DNA of 64,000 nucleotides from Alphaproteobacteria bacterium. Its GTDB lineage: Bacteria; Pseudomonadota; Alphaproteobacteria; CAAGCB01; CAG-977. The translations under genes were made by a program, and so were the position numbers. The stretch is from assembly GCA_024413465.1 (NCBI GenBank), contig JAKSVU010000005.1:1-64000 (forward strand). The letters run 5' to 3'. Below, one piece after another: positions 4,699-43,848 of this stretch (the first letter of the stretch is position 1; each line of letters begins with the position of its first letter). The notes under the pieces are model-generated. The model was given only the letters and a program-made list of their open reading frames with translations, was not told the origin of the DNA and made no database searches.

Positions 4699-5331
4699 AT
4701 GGAAAGTATTTGGAAAACAATTATCATTATATGTGAAGGGAAATCAGAAGAAAATTATATTTCGGAATTGAATAGATTCTTTAGAGAAAACGATATCCGA
4801 ATCATACTAACACCTAAACCAGTTGGTGCGGGTGAATATAAGTCTGTTATTAAGACATACAAAAATCAACGAACTGATAACAAAAAAAGTAAAATAGAAA
4901 TCTGGGTTGATTTTGATATTTATTTAAGAAATGATAACAATTGCATGGATAATTACCAAAAGAAAAAACAATCTATACCTGACTTTTTATTCAATCATCA
5001 AAATTTTGAAGATTTCTTAGTTTTACATAAAGATGATTATACACTGCAAAATTGGTTAGACATATGTAGAAAAGTTAATCATTTCAGCACCCCCTTACAT
5101 GGCAAGGGTGAACAGGGATACATGAATTTATTAGAAAATAACATTTTTCCTGGATATAAAAAAGGAGATTTGCCTTTAAACATAGATAAAGATAGCCTAG
5201 TAAATTTGCTAAAGCACAATATGGACAAAACAATACCCTTAAAATCTGATTTTGCAGATTTTTTATCAAAGATAATAGATACCCATATTCTTAAATGTTT
5301 AGTAAGTTTAGTAATTCTTGGTTTATTTTAA
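4699..5331 (+). CDS. RloB-like TOPRIM-type protein
   Basis: A 210-residue protein starting MESIWKTIIIICEGKSEENY. The strand-turn ICEGKSEE with Glu13, and the acidic IWVDFD segment near residues 69-74, fit the TOPRIM-like fold of the RloB family (PF13707). RloB proteins accompany RloA-type ATPases in phage-defence loci, so with the gene ending at 4688 this forms a two-gene AbiL/RloAB-like system. I chose the ATG at 4699 because the residues before it (from 4660) overlap the ATPase and do not resemble the family. The C-terminus ends in a hydrophobic stretch (LKCLVSLVILGLF), which is unusual and may reflect a frameshift or a divergent tail. Confidence 0.75.
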   Translation: MESIWKTIIIICEGKSEENYISELNRFFRENDIRIILTPKPVGAGEYKSVIKTYKNQRTDNKKSKIEIWVDFDIYLRNDNNCMDNYQKKKQSIPDFLFNHQNFEDFLVLHKDDYTLQNWLDICRKVNHFSTPLHGKGEQGYMNLLENNIFPGYKKGDLPLNIDKDSLVNLLKHNMDKTIPLKSDFADFLSKIIDTHILKCLVSLVILGLF

Positions 5332-31771: not shown

Positions 31772-34700
31772 TTAAAAATGATAAATAGCATTAATCATAC
31801 CTGTGTGATTGGTGTAATCGTTTTTAAATTTGCCGATATAATCCAAAGACACTTCTGTATTTCCTTTATGGATCAGTGAAACACCTGCCCCCATTTCTAC
31901 ACCGAAACGATCCATTTGAACAGATTGAGTTTGATATTCAGCCCCATTTCTTAATGTCACTATGCTTGTTCCATGATCACGTTTAAAATCATAAGTTGCA
32001 TAGATATCTGCCTTTGGTTTAACACTTAGATTCTTATTTAAACGAACTTCTTTTTCAACTTTTATACCAGCCAAAGCTGTTCCTTTTTTTGTCGTTTTTT
32101 GATGAACGATTTGATTTGCTGTATCCACGTATTCATACTGAACAGATGAATTAAACCGAGCTCCAATTTCCGGTGTAAACATCCCCATTGGCATTCCAGC
32201 AACCAAGTATGCTCCCATTGACATCACTCTATATTTAGAATTAACGGAAATACCTTCAACAGACTTTGCTTCATTATACTTTCCACGACTTACACCAAAC
32301 ATGCCTGATAAATAAAATGCATCAAAATTATATCGTCCATACATGAAACCTGTATGCGTTTCTGCACTCGTTTTCCCCTGTTTAGCAGAAATATCTGTAT
32401 CCGTATCCAATTCCCATTTTAAAATCATCAGAAGCGTCTATATCAACACCTGTAGCAAATCCCGTATTATCAGCTTTAAATCCGTTTGAATGAGACATTT
32501 TAGCATGATTCAAAAGCCCTTTTGCCCATACGTTTCCTTTTAAATTTTCAAATCCGGCACTTTTCCCCATAATTCCGGCTTGCGTCATACTAATATTGGC
32601 AATATCATTCATCGTTTCAGTTTGTGAAAGAACTGCAACGCTATTTTGAGGAGCAAGTTTATTCAAAGCTCGAATATAGGATGATCCCCCTTTACTAGAT
32701 AAAATTGCCAACTTTGTCGCAATTTTACCTTCTGTCGTTATCTGATTCATTTGTATTCCATCCCAAGCTTCAGCAGTCTTCGCTTGTCGAGATGAACCTC
32801 CACTCATTTTCACCATTTCCGTTGCAGTTTTGACGTTTGTAATATTCAAAATACCATCATGACTGATTGTATAAGAAACACGCCCTGAACTTCCTTGACG
32901 AGCAACAGAAGCCACGTTGATATTATTATCAGCTAAAAATAAAATATGGGGCTGATCTACCAAAGAAAGTTTATTAACGGCAATATCTAAATGTGTCTTC
33001 TCTTTAATTTCAATATTTCTAGTTGCATAGAATTTTCCTGTATTATCAGGTCTGTCAAACAAGACTATGATGTCCCCATTTATTTCAAAGTTATCAGCTG
33101 TAACAGTTTCTGTTCCTAAAACAAAATGATTTGGTATTTTTGTGATTTCTAAATCACCTGGATCGATAACGGATGAAACAATACGTAGTATATTTCCGTT
33201 AATACTTGCAACGTATTGATAATCTGCTGATAAATATTTATTTTTATCTAACGAAAATTCAACCCCAGCATTATCTCCATAAATAAACTGAAAATCTTGA
33301 GTTTTAACTTCATTCCATAAATTTAATAAAGATAAATTAAGCGTGGCATTCGTTCCATTTTGACTGCCATCAGAAATCGTAATTTTGTCAATTAAATTTC
33401 CTGTTAAATCAACGTCTAATTTCAGCGTTCCTGTCCCTATGAACGAACCAATCGTCAAATTGTCTCCCGCTACTCCATTTGCCATATTGAGTGTCTTATT
33501 ATTCATATCCAAAACGCCATCGATTTTAACTTCATTGGTAACATTTACGTTTGCAGATTGCAAAATTGTCTTTCCCAAAGTACCTAAAATATTTTTTGTT
33601 AAATCACCATTTAATTTTAAAATTCCATTATTTGTAATTGTTCCAGTTAATTTAGATAAATCAGTTTCTACTGTTCCCCCAATAATCACTTTTCCATTAA
33701 GAGATTGTGATAATATTCCATCAGACAAATAAATTGTTCCGTTATTATCAACTGTACCAAGCAAATTTTCAGGTTTTATTTGAACAGTATAACCACTGCC
33801 AACACTTAAATTATTATAGATTTTGTTGTTGATTGTAAAATTACCATTCAGATTCAGCGTTCCAGTTCCCAAGTAATCTATATCAATTGTTCCTGAATAT
33901 CCTAAATTAACTACTCCTGAATTTGTAATACCCCCCCCCGTAGATAAAATTCCTGTTGTAAAAGAAACAACTCCAGATATATTCAACGTTCCGTTATTAA
34001 CAATATCATTATTATTTCCTGTAAAATTTACGTCTGAAATGTTTAACGTTCCACTGTTGATTAAAGCTGTATAAAAATTAGATATAGTTCCTTTACTTGT
34101 TGGATCTCCATAAAGAGTTAATTCCATTCCAGAAGCAACCGTAATCCCATCATTATTTTGACTATCTCCATTGATTGCATACCCGTTTAAAGCAATCGTA
34201 TATGGATTTTTAGCTGAACTTTCACTTCCCGTCGTAATAGCACTCGTTTGATTAATATCGCCAGCTAATTCAAATTCTCCAGAAACTTCCAACCCCTTTT
34301 CTGTTCCCGTAATATAATCAGCCAAAGTTAAAACGTTATATTTTTGAGTAACCTTTAATTTTCCAGCAGTCGTTCCATTTTCAAAAGTATATAAATAATC
34401 ACCAAACTGATTTTTTATCGGATTTGTTAAAACGAGAGAACCAGCATTTGTTAAAACTGTCAAATAATCATCTTGAGGTAAAAAGTTTTCACTTGCATAT
34501 CCATTACTAATATGAATACCCGTCAAATTTAAAGTAGCACTATCAAACTCCGCTGCATTAATTTTATCTGTCTCTTTTGTATTCAAATCAGCATCAATTT
34601 TAAGATTTCCCGTTCCTGTCATTACACCAACAGTTAGCGTATTAAACACAGCAGGATCATTTTCCATATCAATCGTTTTTTCATTGATATTTAACGTCCC

Positions 34701-37700
34701 AGAAATTGATATATTTGAAGCAATTGAAATATCACTTTGTAAAACCGTTGTTCCAGAACCAGAAATATCTTTAGTCAAATTTCCTGCTAAATTTAACGTT
34801 CCATTATTTGTCAACGTTCCACTGATAACCAAATTATTTGATGAAACGTTTAATATTGATCCCATGTCTATTGTTAAATTAGTTTGATTTAAATTTGCAT
34901 CAGAACTAAACGTCGTTGTTCCAGATTTGATTTCTGTTGATCCTGTTCCCGTAATGCCAGAAGAAAAACTATTTATTCCTGTTAAGTTTAATGTTCCTGC
35001 ATTTGAAATATCAATCGTATTATCTTCAAAAGTTATATTCTGAATAACCAATGTTCCATTATTTGTTAAAGCCGTTGAAAATCCTGTTACCACTCCATTT
35101 CCAACGATATGAAATTCATCACCACTTTTAACCGTAATTCCATTATTATCTTCTCCAACAAGAGATTTTTCGTTCATATTTAAAGTAAACTCATCATCTC
35201 TGTTCGTTTCTAAAGACGCAGTCACACTTTGATTTGCAGATAAATCAAAAATTAAAACCAATTTTCCTTTTTCAGTTCCAGTAATAAAATCTTCAAAAGT
35301 CAAATTTTCAATTGATCTGGAAATACTTAACACTCCAAAAGAATTCGTTGTAAATTTATACGTATATCCTGCAATTTCTTTATCATCTACATCAACGATA
35401 AAATTCAAATTCGATGAATCGCTCGCGGAAATAATAGTTAGTCCCGTATCTATTTGCGTAGGATTCAAAATACTAATATCCGTTAAAGTAATTGTCCCTG
35501 TTCCGCCTGATAAAGATAAGTAATCTGCATTTTTTGCTGTCAAATCTGCATCTATTTTTAGATTTCCTGTTCCTATCAAATTACCAATTGTTAAAACGTT
35601 ATTTGAAACACTGTTTTGCATATCAAGTGTTTTATTGTTCAAATCTAACGTTCCAGCAACAGTTGTTGCTGTTGTTACTTCAACGTTATCGCTTTGTAAA
35701 ACAGTCGTTCCTGTCCCTGCTATATTTTTTGTTAAATTATCTGCTAAATTTAAGGTAGCATTATTCGTCAATGTCCCCTTAAAATTCGATAAAGGAGAAT
35801 TTACTGTTCCACTTGCAATGACTGTAGTACCCTCGATTGTTTTTAATAATGATCCCCCTGTTAGGTTAACGCTTCCTGTATTCGTAGAAATATTTTGGAA
35901 CAAATTGTCGGCATCAACAGTTAAATTTGCAGATACTTTTAAGGTTCCATCTCCCTTTATCATTTGCGTTAATGTCCCATCATACCCAAAATCAATTATG
36001 CCATTATTTGAAACAGCATTTGTAATACTCAAATTTGCTGGATTAATTTTTAACGTTGCCCCACTGCTAACTGTCAAATTTCCCTGCTGCAAACCAGCTG
36101 TTGAACTAAAATTTGTCGTTCCGGAGCTGATAGTCATTAATCCTGTTCCTGTAACCCCAGAAGCAAAACTGTTTGTTCCTGCTAAATTTACGGTACCAGC
36201 ATTGGCAATATCATCCTCATTATTTGAAAAAACAACGTCTTGTAAATTAAGTGTATCGCCTGTTTTAATATTCGCAAAAGTCGTATAATATTGAACAGTT
36301 AAACTATTTACCGTCAAAGTTTGATTTTTACTATCGGTTACAACCCCTGCTAGTCTCGTTGAACCATTTTCTGCTAAACCACTTAACGTGTGATTATTTC
36401 CGTTAATTGTAAAAGTTCTGTTTGCACCTGCTAAAGTTCCCAATGCCTCTTTTGGTTGCAAATCTCCTGTCATTGAAAAACTTGCCTTTGAAGAATCAGC
36501 TATCAATTCCGGCAAGGTATATACTCTTTCAGCTTGCTTAACGTTCAAACTAAAATAACCACTACTTGCTGTCGTACTGACAGGAGTAATTGTATATTCG
36601 TAATTTTCAGTATTTACGGTAAGAGGATTTGTATCCAGCGTAAAATTTCCTAATATCCCTGAAGAAGCCTCTATAAAACGTATTCCCGTTGCATTTCCTC
36701 CATCAGCCAGTATCTTAATATCGCTGATTTTTATAGTAATTGCTGATGCAGCATTCGTAATACTTAAAATATCACTTTTCTTTGTATTCAAATTTAGGTC
36801 AAAAGCATAATTTAGGGTTGTTCCACTTTCGGCCAATAAATCTGTCATACTTAATGTACCAATTTTACTGTCTTGTGTACTTAATATGGCTTGATTTGAA
36901 ATGTTAGTTTTAATGGATTTGATCGTTGATGTCGCCGCATCATCTTGTAAATGAAGTGTTCCGTAATTTAAATCTATTTCTGTAGCAGTTGGTAAAACTT
37001 GCGTTAATAAAATCGTTCCTGTATTCGTTGAATTTTTATTTATTTCTAATCCTATTTTTACATAACCTTCTGAAACAATTTTATCTTTTATTGTTAAAGT
37101 TTTTTCATTATTTGCATTTAGTATCAATGGTGAATCATATTGTATATAAATACCACTATTTACACCCGTTGACATATTATCAAACAAAACATCTTTTTGA
37201 TCAGCATATATGGTTGTTGTCCAACCATGAACTAAGTTTGCAATAGCAGCTCCATCATAAGCAAAATTATCAACAAATGAAGTATCTGTTATTTTTAAAT
37301 CGCCAAGAGCCGTAGTTTCTAAATAGATAGCCCCACCTCGAGCTTTGTCTTTTACACCTTCATTTGAAATGTTAATCGTATTTTTAGAAAAATAGGAATT
37401 ACTAATGACAAAACTTTTACTTTCTGCAGTATAAATTGAAATAGCCCCACCTCGAGCCTCTGCATCAATTGATGAAATACTATTTCCAATAAAACTCGTA
37501 TTTGTAATAGAAAGTGCATTACCTGTATGATAAATTGCTCCTCCTTGAACTGTAACAGCTGAAGAACTAGAAGCTTTATTGTTCGAAAAGATAGAATCTG
37601 TAATACTTATCAATTGTGCATCTGTAGAACTAGTTGGTTTATATGTATTATAAATAGCTCCACCTTTGGCATCACCACCAGTAGATTCAATTTTATTATT

Positions 37701-38315
37701 CGCAAATATCCCTTTAATCTTTAAGGATTTATCACTTCCACTTACAGTTCCTTGATTGTATATTGCACCACCAAAAACACTTCCACTTGAAGAAACAGTA
37801 TTATCTATAAAATCACCTTGTATCGATGTAAAATATCCCAATCCTCCATTATAAATACCAGCCCCATCTCCCGTAGAAAAATTACTAATAAAATTTCCCT
37901 TGATAGTCTTTCCATTTCCAGACGACAAAATAATTGCTGCACCATCTGTATTATTCGTATTTCCAATAAAATTAGATGTTATATTCCCTGTTATCGATTT
38001 TGGCGTATTAACTTTCCCAATATAATCTACTCCGTTATCATCAGAAACGTCATATTTTGTTCCCAAAATAGTAACCGCCCCTGATGAATTAGGAGTTAAC
38101 GTATAATTATCTGTTGATAAATTTAATGAAATTGTAGCGTGTTTGATTTCACCATCAACAATATAGTTGATTATATTTCCATTAGAAGCATATCCTGACG
38201 TCTCTTCTATTAAAGTATAACTTTCACCGTATGGAGTAATTGCTTTCGCATAATGAGGTGATCCTATCATAAAAAGACCACTCAACCACACATATTTCAT
38301 TTTTGACTTCAACAT
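31772..38315 (-). pseudogene. giant autotransporter adhesin, frameshifted at the start of the barrel
   Basis: Two overlapping frames form one gene of about 2,180 codons. The long frame (32382-38315, 1977 aa) has a signal peptide (1-25, ending HYAKA). A parallel beta-helix passenger follows, first with polymorphic-type segments (GGAIYN repeats, 150-330) and then many repeats like NNGTLNLAGNLTKDI. The start of the autotransporter barrel (KGNVWAKGLL) ends abruptly at KMGIGYGYRYFC. The second frame (31772-32428) resumes with TDTDISAKQGK and runs to the classical C-terminal INAIYHF. The break is near 32400-32412 in a repeated GGATAC/ACGGAT context and is explained by a net change of one base gained or two lost. 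As written, the barrel is not made, so the protein could not be displayed. Confidence 0.85.
33931..33939 (-). other. G9 homopolymer in the autotransporter coding strand
   Basis: Nine consecutive C on the + strand (nine G in the coding sense) encode the Gly-Gly-Gly of STGGGITNSG. Long G tracts are rare in such AT-rich DNA and are classic slippage sites in phase-variable surface-protein genes. The present length keeps the passenger frame open. Confidence 0.6.
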
Positions 38316-39858: not shown

Positions 39859-40494
39859 TTACAAATCATCTAACAATTTTTCACCTATCGTCTTTAAACG
39901 AACTGTAATTGAAATTTCATCTTCATTGATAACCTCATAAAAAGATTGTTCCTTTATCATTTGTCTTACACATTGTGTCGGAAACAAAAATTCTAATGTC
40001 TTTTCAAATTTTTCCGAAAATTTAGCAATTTTAGGACAACACCGAATCATTATATTTTGACATTGTGAAGGAAAATCTGAAATATCAACTAAAAGTGGAT
40101 TATCTGAACAATCAAATGTCCCTTCTACTTTTTCTGGACATCCCTCTAAATTTGTGAGCTGATTGTCAGAACAATCAAAATTTCCTTTTATCTCTTTTGG
40201 ACAACCTTTTAAACTCGTTAATTGATTTTCAGAACAAGTAAAGTAACCTTCTACTTTTTCTGGGCAACCTTCTAAATTTGTTAATTGATTTTCAGAACAA
40301 TCAAAAGCTCCCTTTATTTTTTTAGGACAACCTTTTAAATTGATTAATTTATTACAATTACACTCAAAAGCTCCGTTTATTTCCTTTGGACAACCTTCCA
40401 AACTGGTTAATCTTTTTCCTGAACAATCAAAATATCCATCATAATATTTGAGATTTGTAATTTTTCCTTTTTTTACATTAAATGAGCAACTCAT
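39859..40494 (-). CDS. Cys/Leu 21-residue repeat protein A (5 units)
   Basis: A 211-residue protein built of 21-residue repeats with the pattern FDCSxNQLTSLEGCPKEIK, resembling short leucine-rich repeats. Five full units lie at about residues 22-125, then a capping unit (DNPLLVDISDFPSQC) and a C-terminal globular segment ending ITVRLKTIGEKLLDDL. The N-terminus (MSCSFNVKKGKITNLKYYDG) has the same plan as its two neighbours. GGGAGG precedes the ATG by seven bases. It is the third and shortest of three tandem paralogues. There is no signal peptide; the regular Cys at repeat position 3 and near position 15 suggests a reduced cytoplasmic solenoid. A binding or recognition role is inferred. Confidence 0.8.
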   Translation of the reverse strand: MSCSFNVKKGKITNLKYYDGYFDCSGKRLTSLEGCPKEINGAFECNCNKLINLKGCPKKIKGAFDCSENQLTNLEGCPEKVEGYFTCSENQLTSLKGCPKEIKGNFDCSDNQLTNLEGCPEKVEGTFDCSDNPLLVDISDFPSQCQNIMIRCCPKIAKFSEKFEKTLEFLFPTQCVRQMIKEQSFYEVINEDEISITVRLKTIGEKLLDDL

Positions 40495-40515
40495 AGCAAT
40501 CCTCCCAAATTGTTT

Positions 40516-41340
40516 TTACAAATCATCTAGCAATTTTTCACCTATCGTCTTTAGGCGAACTGTAATTGAAAATTTATCTTCATTGACAACTTCATAAAAA
40601 GGGTGCTTTTTTATCCTTCGTCTTACCAATTTTGTCGGGAAGCAAAATTTCAAAGTATTATCTATTTGCTTTGGAAATTTTGTAATTTTAGGACAATCCT
40701 CAATCTCTATTTTTTGACAATTTGAAGGTAGATCTGAAATATCAACCAATAAAGAATTGTTTGCACAATCAAAATACTCATCTATCTTTTCTGGACAACC
40801 TTCTAAACTTGTCAGTTGATTATGAGAACAATCAAAAGCTCCTTTTATTTCCTTTGGACATCCTTCTAAACTTGTTAGTTGATTCTGAGAACAGTCAAAT
40901 TCCCCATCTACTTTTTCTGGACATCCCTCTAAATTTGTGAGATAATTTTCCCAACAACTGAAATCACCTTTTACTTCTTTCGGACATCCTTTTAAACTCG
41001 TTAATTGATTATCAGAACAATTAAAATAACCTTCTACTTTTTCTGGACAACCTTCTAAATTCGTCAATTGATTTCCAAAACAATCAAAAGCTCCTTTTAT
41101 TTCCTTTGGACATCCTTCTAAACTTGTCAATTGATTATCAGAACAATTAAATCGCCCCTCTACTTTTTTTGGACATCCTTTTAAACTCGTCAATTGATTT
41201 TTAGAACAATTAAAATAACCTTCTACTTTTTCTGGACAACCTTCTAAACTTGTTAATTGATCATCAAAACAATAAAAATTTCCTCCATCATATTTGAGGT
41301 TTATAATCTTTCCATCTTTGACTTCAAATGAATAACTCAT
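40516..41340 (-). CDS. Cys/Leu 21-residue repeat protein B (8 units)
   Basis: A 274-residue paralogue of the genes on both sides, with eight full 21-residue units before the cap NNSLLVDISDLPSNCQ and the same C-terminal segment (FYEVVNEDKFSITVRLKTIG). The ATG at 41340 (MSYSFEVKDGKIINLKY) is chosen by alignment with the neighbours and a GGGA site nine bases upstream; a TTG 15 bases earlier is less likely. The gap to gene A is 21 bases and to gene C 20 bases, so the three are one transcript. The size difference between B and A is almost exactly three repeat units. Confidence 0.8.
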   Translation of the reverse strand: MSYSFEVKDGKIINLKYDGGNFYCFDDQLTSLEGCPEKVEGYFNCSKNQLTSLKGCPKKVEGRFNCSDNQLTSLEGCPKEIKGAFDCFGNQLTNLEGCPEKVEGYFNCSDNQLTSLKGCPKEVKGDFSCWENYLTNLEGCPEKVDGEFDCSQNQLTSLEGCPKEIKGAFDCSHNQLTSLEGCPEKIDEYFDCANNSLLVDISDLPSNCQKIEIEDCPKITKFPKQIDNTLKFCFPTKLVRRRIKKHPFYEVVNEDKFSITVRLKTIGEKLLDDL

Positions 41341-41360
41341 AACAATATTTCCCAATTATT

Positions 41361-42563
41361 TTACAAATCATCTAACAATTTCTTACCTATCGTCTTTTGA
41401 CGAACTGTAATTGAAAATTCATCTTCATTGACAACCTCATAAAAAGATTGTTCTTTTATCCGTTGTCTTACACATTGTGTCGGATGTATAAAATTCAAAG
41501 TATTATCTATTTGACATGGAAATTTAGTAATTTTATGACAATTCTCAATGTCTATTTCTTGACAATTTGAAGGTATATCTGAAATATCAACCAATAAGGT
41601 ATTACCAGAACAACTAAAATTACCTTTTATCTCTTTTGGACAACCTTTTAAACTAGTCAGTCGATTATACGAACAAGAAAAATTACCGATTACTTTTTCT
41701 GGGCAACCTTCTAAATTTGTCAATTGATTTCCAGAACAATCAAAAGCTTCTTTTATTTCTTTTGGACATCCTTCTAAGCTTGTGAGTTGATTTCCATAAC
41801 AATAAAAAAAGCCTTTTATCTCTTTTGGACAACCTTTTAAACTTGTCAATCGATTATACGAACAAGTAAAATTTCCGATTACTTTTTCTGAGCAACCTTT
41901 TAAATTCGTCAATTGATTTCCAGAACAATCAAAAGCTCCGTTTATTTCCTTTGGACATCCTTCTAAACTCGTCAATTGATTATCAGAACAATTAAATCGC
42001 CCCTCTACTTTTTTTGGACATCCTTCTAAGCTTGTGAGTTGATTTCCATAACAATAAAAAGAGCTTTTTATCTCTTTAGGACAACATTCCAAACTTATTA
42101 ATTGATTATGAGAACAATTAAAATCTCCTTCTATTTTTCCAGGGCATCCATCCAAACTTGCTAGTTGATTACAAGAACAATCAAAATCTCCTTCTACTTT
42201 TTTTGGACATCCCTCTAAATTTGTGAGTTGATTTCTAGAACAATCAAAAGCTCCCTTTATTTCCTTTGGACATTCTTCTAAACTCGTCAATTGATTACCA
42301 GAACAATCAAATTTTCCATCTACTTTTTTTGGACATCCCTCTAAATTTGTGAGTCGATTTTCAGAACAATCAAAATCTCCCATTGTCTCTTTGGGACAAT
42401 TTTCTAAACTTGTCAATTGATTGACAGAACAATTAAAATTCCCATCTACTTTTTTCGGGCATCCATCCAAACTAGTCATTTTATTGCGAGAACAATCAAA
42501 ATCACCTCCACCATATTTGAGATTGATAATCTTTCTATCTTTGACATCAAATGAACTTTTCAC
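41361..42563 (-). CDS. Cys/Leu 21-residue repeat protein C (14 units)
   Basis: A 400-residue protein, the first gene of the tandem set, with fourteen full repeat units and the shared cap (NTLLVDISDIPSNCQE) and C-terminal segment (here ITVRQKTIGKKLLDDL). The start is GTG (MKSSFDVKDRKIINLKY), with AGGAGA seven bases upstream; the overlapping ATG at -2 runs into TGA. Alternating LTSLEGCPKEIK and LTNLEGCPEKV units suggest that a two-unit (42-residue, 126-bp) block has been the unit of duplication. DNA-level similarity between units is high, so length change by recombination is likely. Confidence 0.8.
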   Translation of the reverse strand: MKSSFDVKDRKIINLKYGGGDFDCSRNKMTSLDGCPKKVDGNFNCSVNQLTSLENCPKETMGDFDCSENRLTNLEGCPKKVDGKFDCSGNQLTSLEECPKEIKGAFDCSRNQLTNLEGCPKKVEGDFDCSCNQLASLDGCPGKIEGDFNCSHNQLISLECCPKEIKSSFYCYGNQLTSLEGCPKKVEGRFNCSDNQLTSLEGCPKEINGAFDCSGNQLTNLKGCSEKVIGNFTCSYNRLTSLKGCPKEIKGFFYCYGNQLTSLEGCPKEIKEAFDCSGNQLTNLEGCPEKVIGNFSCSYNRLTSLKGCPKEIKGNFSCSGNTLLVDISDIPSNCQEIDIENCHKITKFPCQIDNTLNFIHPTQCVRQRIKEQSFYEVVNEDEFSITVRQKTIGKKLLDDL

Positions 42564-43074: not shown

Positions 43075-43206
43075 TCAATCTACATAACTTCCAGGAACAG
43101 GACAAATATTTTTGCCATCATTATAATTTCCAATACAATAAGGATCACACGCTTGTAGAGCAAGGGAAGAAAGAACTAAAGCTAAAGCAAGAATTAATTT
43201 TTTCAT
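43075..43206 (-). CDS. tiny lipoprotein, 43 aa
   Basis: A small protein starting MKKLILALALVLSSLALQAC, a complete lipoprotein signal with a lipobox ending at Cys20, followed by only 23 residues containing two more Cys (YCIGNY, ICPVPG). GGGGAGA lies seven bases before this ATG, so I reject the longer in-frame start. The mature part is too short for an enzyme; entericidin-like or lysis-protein-like small lipoproteins have this shape, but no family is recognised. It is divergent from the RiPP-like peptide genes 160 bases away, and as a membrane-active or immunity-type partner of those peptides it would fit, by position only. Confidence 0.6.
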   Translation of the reverse strand: MKKLILALALVLSSLALQACDPYCIGNYNDGKNICPVPGSYVD

Positions 43207-43367
43207 GACACATCTCCCCATATAATCATTACATTTATAAAACGAATAAAAAAGCAAATGGTTACAAAAAAAATAAAAAAAATTTCTAACTTTATAAATT
43301 TTTTGTAACTATTTTTCATTTTATCCGTTTCACTAATTAGAAGGAACACCTTTTTAGGAGAACAAAC

Positions 43368-43631
43368 ATGGAAAAAGAAAATAAATTAGTTAACGAACAA
43401 GAAGCTAAAGAAAACGAAATCGTTGAATTAAAAGATGATGATTTATCTACAATTACTGCTGGTTCAGGGAATCAGGTTTTAGATTCACACAAAAATGAGG
43501 TACTCAAAAACAAAAATGATGTTAGACGAAGCAACACTTGCGTTTTAGATTCACACAAAAATGAGGTACTCAAAAACTTACTTTTATCTTCTATTTTCTT
43601 TCAGTACCGTTTTAGATTCACACAAAAATGA
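43368..43631 (+). CDS. RiPP/bacteriocin-like leader peptide gene interrupted by a CRISPR-like array
   Basis: Residues 1-34 (MEKENKLVNEQEAKENEIVE, then LKDDDLSTITAGSG) form a leader like those of double-glycine or Ala-Gly cleaved peptides: acidic, with the conserved ELxxxxLSxITAGS ending. The paralogous gene 289 bases downstream has the same leader and a different core. From residue 37 on, the frame runs into 36-base repeats (encoding VLDSHKNEVLKN twice), and after the second spacer, of 31 rather than 30 bases, it goes out of repeat phase and stops. The original core therefore appears to be replaced or displaced. TTAGGAG precedes the ATG. The translated product beyond the leader is probably not selected as protein. 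Confidence 0.5.
   Translation: MEKENKLVNEQEAKENEIVELKDDDLSTITAGSGNQVLDSHKNEVLKNKNDVRRSNTCVLDSHKNEVLKNLLLSSIFFQYRFRFTQK
43476..43631. CRISPR. short orphan CRISPR-like array (2 full repeats and a degenerate third)
   Basis: Two identical 36-base repeats at 43476-43511 and 43542-43577 (beginning GTTTTAGATTC, ending GTACTCAAAAAC) are followed by a third copy at 43609-43631 identical for its first 23 bases and then degenerate. Spacers are 43512-43541 (30 bases) and 43578-43608 (31 bases). The repeat length, GTTTTAGA start, AAAAC end and spacer length match type II arrays, and terminal-repeat decay places the trailer on the right. No cas gene or obvious tracrRNA anti-repeat was seen in the window. 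A chance tandem coding repeat is less likely because the spacing breaks the reading frame. Confidence 0.7.
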
Positions 43632-43656
43632 ATAAATTTAAAATTGGAGAATATCC

Positions 43657-43848
43657 ATGGAAAAAGAAACAAAAGATACAGAAGTTGTCGAGTTGAAAGA
43701 TGAAGAATTATCTGCAATCACTGCTGGTTCTAATAGTTTAATCACCTCAGAATTTACCGAAAAAGATCGATACGTTTGTACGGGCAAAATTTCTCCACGG
43801 AAGCTAGAAATATGCTCACGATATGCTGAATATAAATTAGAAAATTGA
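43657..43848 (+). CDS. RiPP/bacteriocin-like precursor peptide, 63 aa
   Basis: MEKETKDTEVVELKDEELSA then ITAGS forms a 25-residue leader matching the peptide at 43368, followed by a basic core of about 38 residues (SLITSEFTEKDRYVCTGK, later ISPRKLEIC) with two Cys that could form a disulfide or thioether. TTGGAG precedes the ATG. This precursor layout (acidic leader, LSxIxAG cleavage site, variable core) is that of peptides processed by C39 peptidase/ABC exporters. No exporter, modification enzyme or immunity gene is visible beside it except possibly the tiny lipoprotein. Antimicrobial function is inferred. Confidence 0.55.
   Translation: MEKETKDTEVVELKDEELSAITAGSNSLITSEFTEKDRYVCTGKISPRKLEICSRYAEYKLEN

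Follow-up and report, generated by a model that had tools for sequence, protein, structure and literature searches.

The window analysed here, a 64,000-nt stretch of contig JAKSVU010000005.1, contains a lineage-specific gene for a leader peptide, and the core-encoding part of this gene holds a true CRISPR-type mini-array. The same arrangement, with diverged repeats, occurs in at least seven leader-peptide genes of the source genome (G000) and a congener (G011, an alphaproteobacterial MAG from horse faeces), and the mini-arrays are CRISPR-type, with spacers captured from other DNA. On balance, we consider it probable that they arose by repeated integration at a repeat-like site of the leader genes, probably by a type II-C Cas1-Cas2, followed by near-neutral decay. 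The data do not call for a guide function.

Organization of the array in the window

The window array consists of two identical 36-nt repeats (R1 and R2), spacers of 30 nt (S1) and 31 nt (S2), and a third repeat copy that matches R1 and R2 over its first 23 nt and is divergent beyond (Table 1). The 3' part of this terminal repeat, of the GAATAAATTTAAAATTGGAGAA type, is common to the terminal repeats of other arrays. An 87-aa ORF beginning with the leader is open across the whole array, and the 63-aa paralogue that follows begins with the same leader (79% identical in DNA over 71 nt). There is no cas gene in the vicinity of the array. The initial annotation had described these features correctly, from the repeat and spacer lengths and the decayed third copy to the intact downstream paralogue and the absence of adjacent cas genes. 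Its proposal of a mini-array at the leader-core junction is borne out by the captured-gene spacers and the homologous arrays at other paralogues described below. A leader gene with its core replaced by an array is indeed seen, although this is a family-wide state rather than the single event that had been envisaged.

The exact 36-mer is absent elsewhere in the source genome and from 11 family relatives, 85k species genomes and IMG/VR viral contigs, and Rfam matched nothing within the window. The repeat is far beyond chance, since diverged copies with the same geometry occur at other leader loci in two genomes. With its two repeats still identical, the window array is the freshest copy, and this identity indicates recent growth.

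Other features of the window were noted in passing. A small lipoprotein-like ORF (MKKLILALALVLSSLALQACDPYC...) at 43075-43257 (-) is divergent from the leader gene. Three adjoining genes of CSxNQLTSLEGCPK-type repeats, apparently tandem paralogues, occupy 39859-42563 (-), and a large repetitive autotransporter-like protein of 1977 aa is encoded at 32382-38315 (-).

Table 1. Features of the mini-array locus in the window
Feature	Positions	Strand	Basis
Upstream region, probable promoter and ribosome-binding site	43297..43367	+	conserved among leader-peptide genes (8-locus alignment)
Leader peptide coding sequence, MEKENKLVNEQEAKENEIVELKDDDLSTITAG	43368..43463	+	protein matches in G000 and G011; third-position differences
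Repeat R1, 36 nt	43476..43511	+	nhmmer and repeat-model matches at other loci
Spacer S1, 30 nt	43512..43541	+	without match
Repeat R2, 36 nt, same as R1	43542..43577	+	sequence identity
Spacer S2, 31 nt	43578..43608	+	weak antisense matches only, 19/20 and 18/19 nt
Terminal repeat	43609..43644	+	23 nt as R1/R2, then 3' part of GAATAAATTTAAAATTGGAGAA type
Leader and array-encoded tail, whole ORF, 87 aa	43368..43631	+	first unit open in leader frame
Second leader-peptide gene, ordinary variable core	43657..43848	+	directly downstream of array

The leader-peptide gene family

A protein search with the window ORF returned 29 matches in the source genome and 27 in G011 (E<=1) and none that was convincing in ten other family members; in a wider leader search, G011 was the sole further carrier. 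The family combines a conserved leader with a hypervariable core (34 ORFs), a feature of leader-peptide families of the RiPP/bacteriocin type. It is large and dispersed in both genomes, two of the four available for the genus, and its C-termini are hypervariable. Neither of the two leader peptides of the window reaches the cut-off of a Pfam or NCBIfam family, and no gene for maturation, processing or export adjoins the leader loci that were read. The 5' region of the leader genes is strongly conserved, with invariant ATCCGTT, AAGGAA and GAGAA blocks across eight loci in two species. A scan for the sigma-70 consensus found no promoter in this region of the window; the conservation is consistent with a promoter shared by the leader loci.

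Selection was compared over seven array-bearing genes, comprising five full arrays and two decayed forms. Third codon positions hold 65% of the differences among leaders and 22% of those among repeats, and the former value indicates that the leader peptide is under protein-level selection. The divergence of the repeats (227/756, 0.30) is close to that of leader third positions (91/357, 0.25), so the repeats appear to drift near-neutrally. Their alignment shows no conserved stem and no consensus pairs, and hairpin folding is seen in some copies only. At all eight loci the first repeat-spacer unit can be read through without a stop in the leader frame, and the other two frames are stopped in six and seven of the eight. 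In the spacers alone, none of 8 leader-frame readings contains a stop, against 7 of 16 readings in the other frames (Fisher p about 0.03, in a small test). Many second units have lost the frame or contain a stop. These counts are weak evidence that translation of the tail may matter.

Arrays at other leader-peptide genes

Diverged copies of the repeat sit directly after the leader at several paralogues, with E-values down to 5e-9 in nhmmer and 3e-9 with a repeat model. Seven arrays could be delimited: that of the window, three others in the source genome (C58, C42a and C42b) and three in G011 (C12, C11a and C11b); C53 and C37 hold decayed forms. The usual order is leader, repeat, spacer, repeat, spacer, terminal repeat and then the next leader gene. 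Ten of the 14 spacers are 30 nt long, two are 29 nt and two are 31 nt, with borders set by the analyst where a repeat has lost 9-16 nt. Between loci, repeats are 68% identical and spacers 27%, the same as shuffled spacers. Some repeats have internal deletions and unit steps of 67 and 65 nt occur, yet the spacing is kept even where the frame is broken. The 3' half of R1 differs from that of the terminal repeat at every locus. In the paralogues C47 and C58 6369 of the source genome only one repeat-like stretch is present, which suggests either that the "repeat" began as a part of the peptide gene or that these are collapsed arrays.

Within the genus, significant copies found by the repeat model are confined to the leader loci of the two genomes. 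Over 385 genomes of the class the model found nothing above chance, the best E-values (0.002-0.05) being those expected by chance.

Origins of the spacers

All spacers were compared by BLAST with four genomes of the genus. Spacer S1 of the C12 array in G011 matches topA of the source genome at 29/30 positions (E 6e-7), the single difference being synonymous. In the C58 array of the source genome, S1 matches the gene for the large subunit of a phage terminase (27/30, E 5e-5) and S2 one for a DinG-like helicase (26/29, E 2e-4). A weaker match links S1 of C11b in G011 to the gene for ribosomal protein L25 (26/31, E 0.013). The gene matches begin at the first base of the spacer and end with it or 1-4 bases short. 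Such near end-to-end matches establish CRISPR-type capture and exclude coding repeats. The G011 spacers match the other species better than their own genome, where topA agrees at 20/30 and L25 at 21/31 positions; the L25 of a further genome, G009, agrees at 25/31.

Read in the sense of the array, the spacers of all four gene matches are complementary to the mRNA (one-sided p about 0.06), and two weaker matches have this orientation as well. The matches are best at the spacer end adjoining the upstream repeat. A possible NNNAWA-like motif 3' of the four targets is not significant. Window spacers S1 and S2 gave no convincing match to the genus genomes or to viruses, phages, plasmids and other genomes, and the latter four gave no credible match to the repeat or to any spacer. 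One spacer agreed with an IMG/VR contig over 20 nt, but the match went no further and was rejected as chance.

Two further observations were made on these loci. The short contig with the terminase-matching array (C58) also bears a phage head-tail adaptor gene (L034 1367-2644), and a G011 spacer, CCCAGCAGGGCGAGGTAGTAAACGAAATTT (L026 668-697), is similar to CCTCTCCCTACAGGGCGAGGTGGTAAGG, an intergenic repeat that is dispersed in the genus.

CRISPR-Cas systems in the lineage

A search of the source genome for cas9, as proposed in the initial annotation, located a small type II-C locus on contig C38 (28000-39683), with cas9, cas1, cas2, a tracrRNA candidate upstream of cas9 and a six-repeat array whose repeat is unlike that of the window. 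This native array has 36-nt repeats and 30-nt spacers, and II-C arrays across the family have 36-nt repeats at a spacing of 65-67 nt. The native repeat pairs with the tracrRNA candidate at -37.2 kcal/mol. The mini-repeats, in both orientations, pair with it no better than shuffled sequences, which rules them out as guides for the resident Cas9. Membership in type II, suggested earlier from the repeat, is thus not upheld, and no repeat of the mini-array type adjoins any cas9 found in the family, where all II-C arrays carry other repeats. Both cas1 and cas9 are absent from G011, which is 96% complete.

In register, the window repeat is identical to the native repeat at 23/36 positions (z 4.6), with the likeness in the 5' half, and to the Lwa Cas13a repeat, whose sequence was confirmed in papers, at 24/36 (local z 7.7). 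As it resembles both, similarity does not settle its type. Cas13a is absent from the genus, neither G000 nor G011 having a match to NF038188, and no matching effector for the mini-arrays was found among cas9 and cas13a in these two genomes. In another genus of the family, G006 has a Cas13a gene (L075 5301-8492) and a six-repeat array of 36+30 nt (4846-5227) without cas1 or cas2 nearby; this system may borrow the II-C integrase.

Discussion

The explanation we favor begins with the leader genes themselves, in which the stretch just after the leader would resemble a CRISPR repeat. A Cas1-Cas2 integrase would repeatedly insert fragments of about 30 nt there, duplicating the 36-nt site. The lineage's type II-C Cas1-Cas2, acting in trans, is the most likely candidate, given that native arrays share the 36+30 nt unit. 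The fragments would derive from phage and from chromosomal genes of related bacteria. The resulting arrays would putatively be co-transcribed with the leader, the first unit usually still being translated as a peptide tail, and their repeats would later decay at about the neutral rate. Several findings count against parts of this account. What ties the arrays to the II-C integrase is their geometry and a modest similarity of the repeats. G011 is without cas1, yet its topA-matching spacer looks recent; either the writer has been lost, the assembly failed to capture it, or the locus arrived by transfer. The 3'-half differences between R1 and the terminal repeat would not be given by a fresh target-site duplication, the antisense orientation of all four gene matches is not predicted for a pure by-product, and the open first units likewise weigh on the other side.

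That antisense orientation speaks for the possibility that these are orphan guide arrays, their crRNA precursors being transcribed from the leader promoter to serve an RNA-guided and probably RNA-targeting effector, type VI-A-like or of an unknown kind, that is absent from the assemblies or acts from elsewhere. The two weaker antisense matches, the better agreement at the upstream-repeat end of the spacer, the likeness to the Lwa Cas13a repeat, the cas13a and 36+30 array of the relative G006 and the hairpin in some repeat copies all point the same way. We nevertheless judge it unlikely, as the genus lacks Cas13a and G011 lacks both cas9 and cas1, the repeats have no conserved stem, drift near-neutrally and suffer internal deletions, and spacers have three mismatches to targets in their own genome. 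Less probable again is that integration has been kept for core diversification, each 66-nt unit (22 codons) supplying an exported leader peptide with a new tail in frame. Coding selection on the leaders of array-bearing genes, the open first unit with its stop-free spacers and the hypervariability of the family after the leader would suit such a role; second units that are stopped or shifted by 67- and 65-nt steps, and the lack of a processing or export gene beside the loci read, would not, and the openness test is small. An extension of this idea, that the peptide family diversifies itself by means of a CRISPR integrase, with foreign 30-nt pieces in frame behind a putative export leader providing new tails instead of or besides RNA guides, seems to us slightly more doubtful still.

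Spread of the repeats by a mobile element or by a recombination cassette of integron-like or other type, with 30-nt linkers of another origin, is very improbable: the unit does recur at dispersed loci, but inserts of a constant 29-31 nt that match genes almost exactly indicate a CRISPR integrase and the copies are confined to one gene family. An integron attC site was rejected by inspection, the repeat ends being without the core-site pattern. Least credible are ordinary in-frame coding repeats of a multi-core peptide that mimic CRISPR, the alternative named in the initial annotation. The 66-nt spacing of R1 and R2 keeps the frame and the ORF is open, but the spacers were captured from unrelated genes, the repeats do not differ preferentially at third codon positions and the spacing is conserved where the frame is broken; the gene-derived spacers and the codon-position pattern rule out coding tandem repeats.

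A comparison of the mini-arrays with known systems shows partial likeness to several. They share with the II-C system of the source genome the 36-nt repeats, 30-nt spacers, 65-67 nt spacing and a partial similarity of the 5' half of the repeat, and differ in having another repeat that the tracrRNA does not pair with, no adjacent cas genes and a location in peptide genes. CreTA/CreA and scaRNA likewise have few, degenerate repeats outside CRISPR loci and partial matches to genes of their own genome, with one or two repeats and a linked or resident effector (PMC9458426, PMC8501985). In contrast, the mini-arrays occupy many loci of the leader family with different spacers and no effector was found for them among cas9 and cas13a; a CreTA-like guide role for the resident Cas9 likewise finds no support in tracrRNA pairing. 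Virus-borne mini-CRISPR arrays (PMC6858448) and orphan arrays (PMC8616872) are also tiny and without cas genes. Such arrays usually have repeats identical or very similar to those of complete arrays (PMC8616872), whereas the repeats at the leader genes are neither identical nor very similar to those of complete arrays, and a scan of the viral collection did not find the window repeat. In type II-A, ectopic acquisition of spacers also takes place away from the normal site, but inside an existing array (PMC7999890) rather than in protein-coding genes. Archaeal inter-species spacers (PMC3285040) similarly match chromosomal genes of related species, while the present arrays are bacterial and orphan. 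Type VI-A (Cas13a) arrays resemble them in a 36-nt repeat ending in AAAAC, in 30-nt spacers and possibly in spacers complementary to mRNA, and differ in that the genus of the mini-arrays lacks Cas13a and the mini-repeats lack a conserved stem. At the level of titles and abstracts, the literature held no precedent for arrays linked to precursor peptides.

In conclusion, CRISPR-type capture has acted time and again on a family of protein-coding genes and not on a CRISPR locus, and the repeats of the mini-arrays appear to be part of the peptide gene. The birth of CRISPR arrays can thus be observed in nature, and two questions become directly testable: whether leader-gene arrays yield guides and whether spacer capture can rewrite peptides. 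The spacers also constitute a record of gene exchange between sister gut species.
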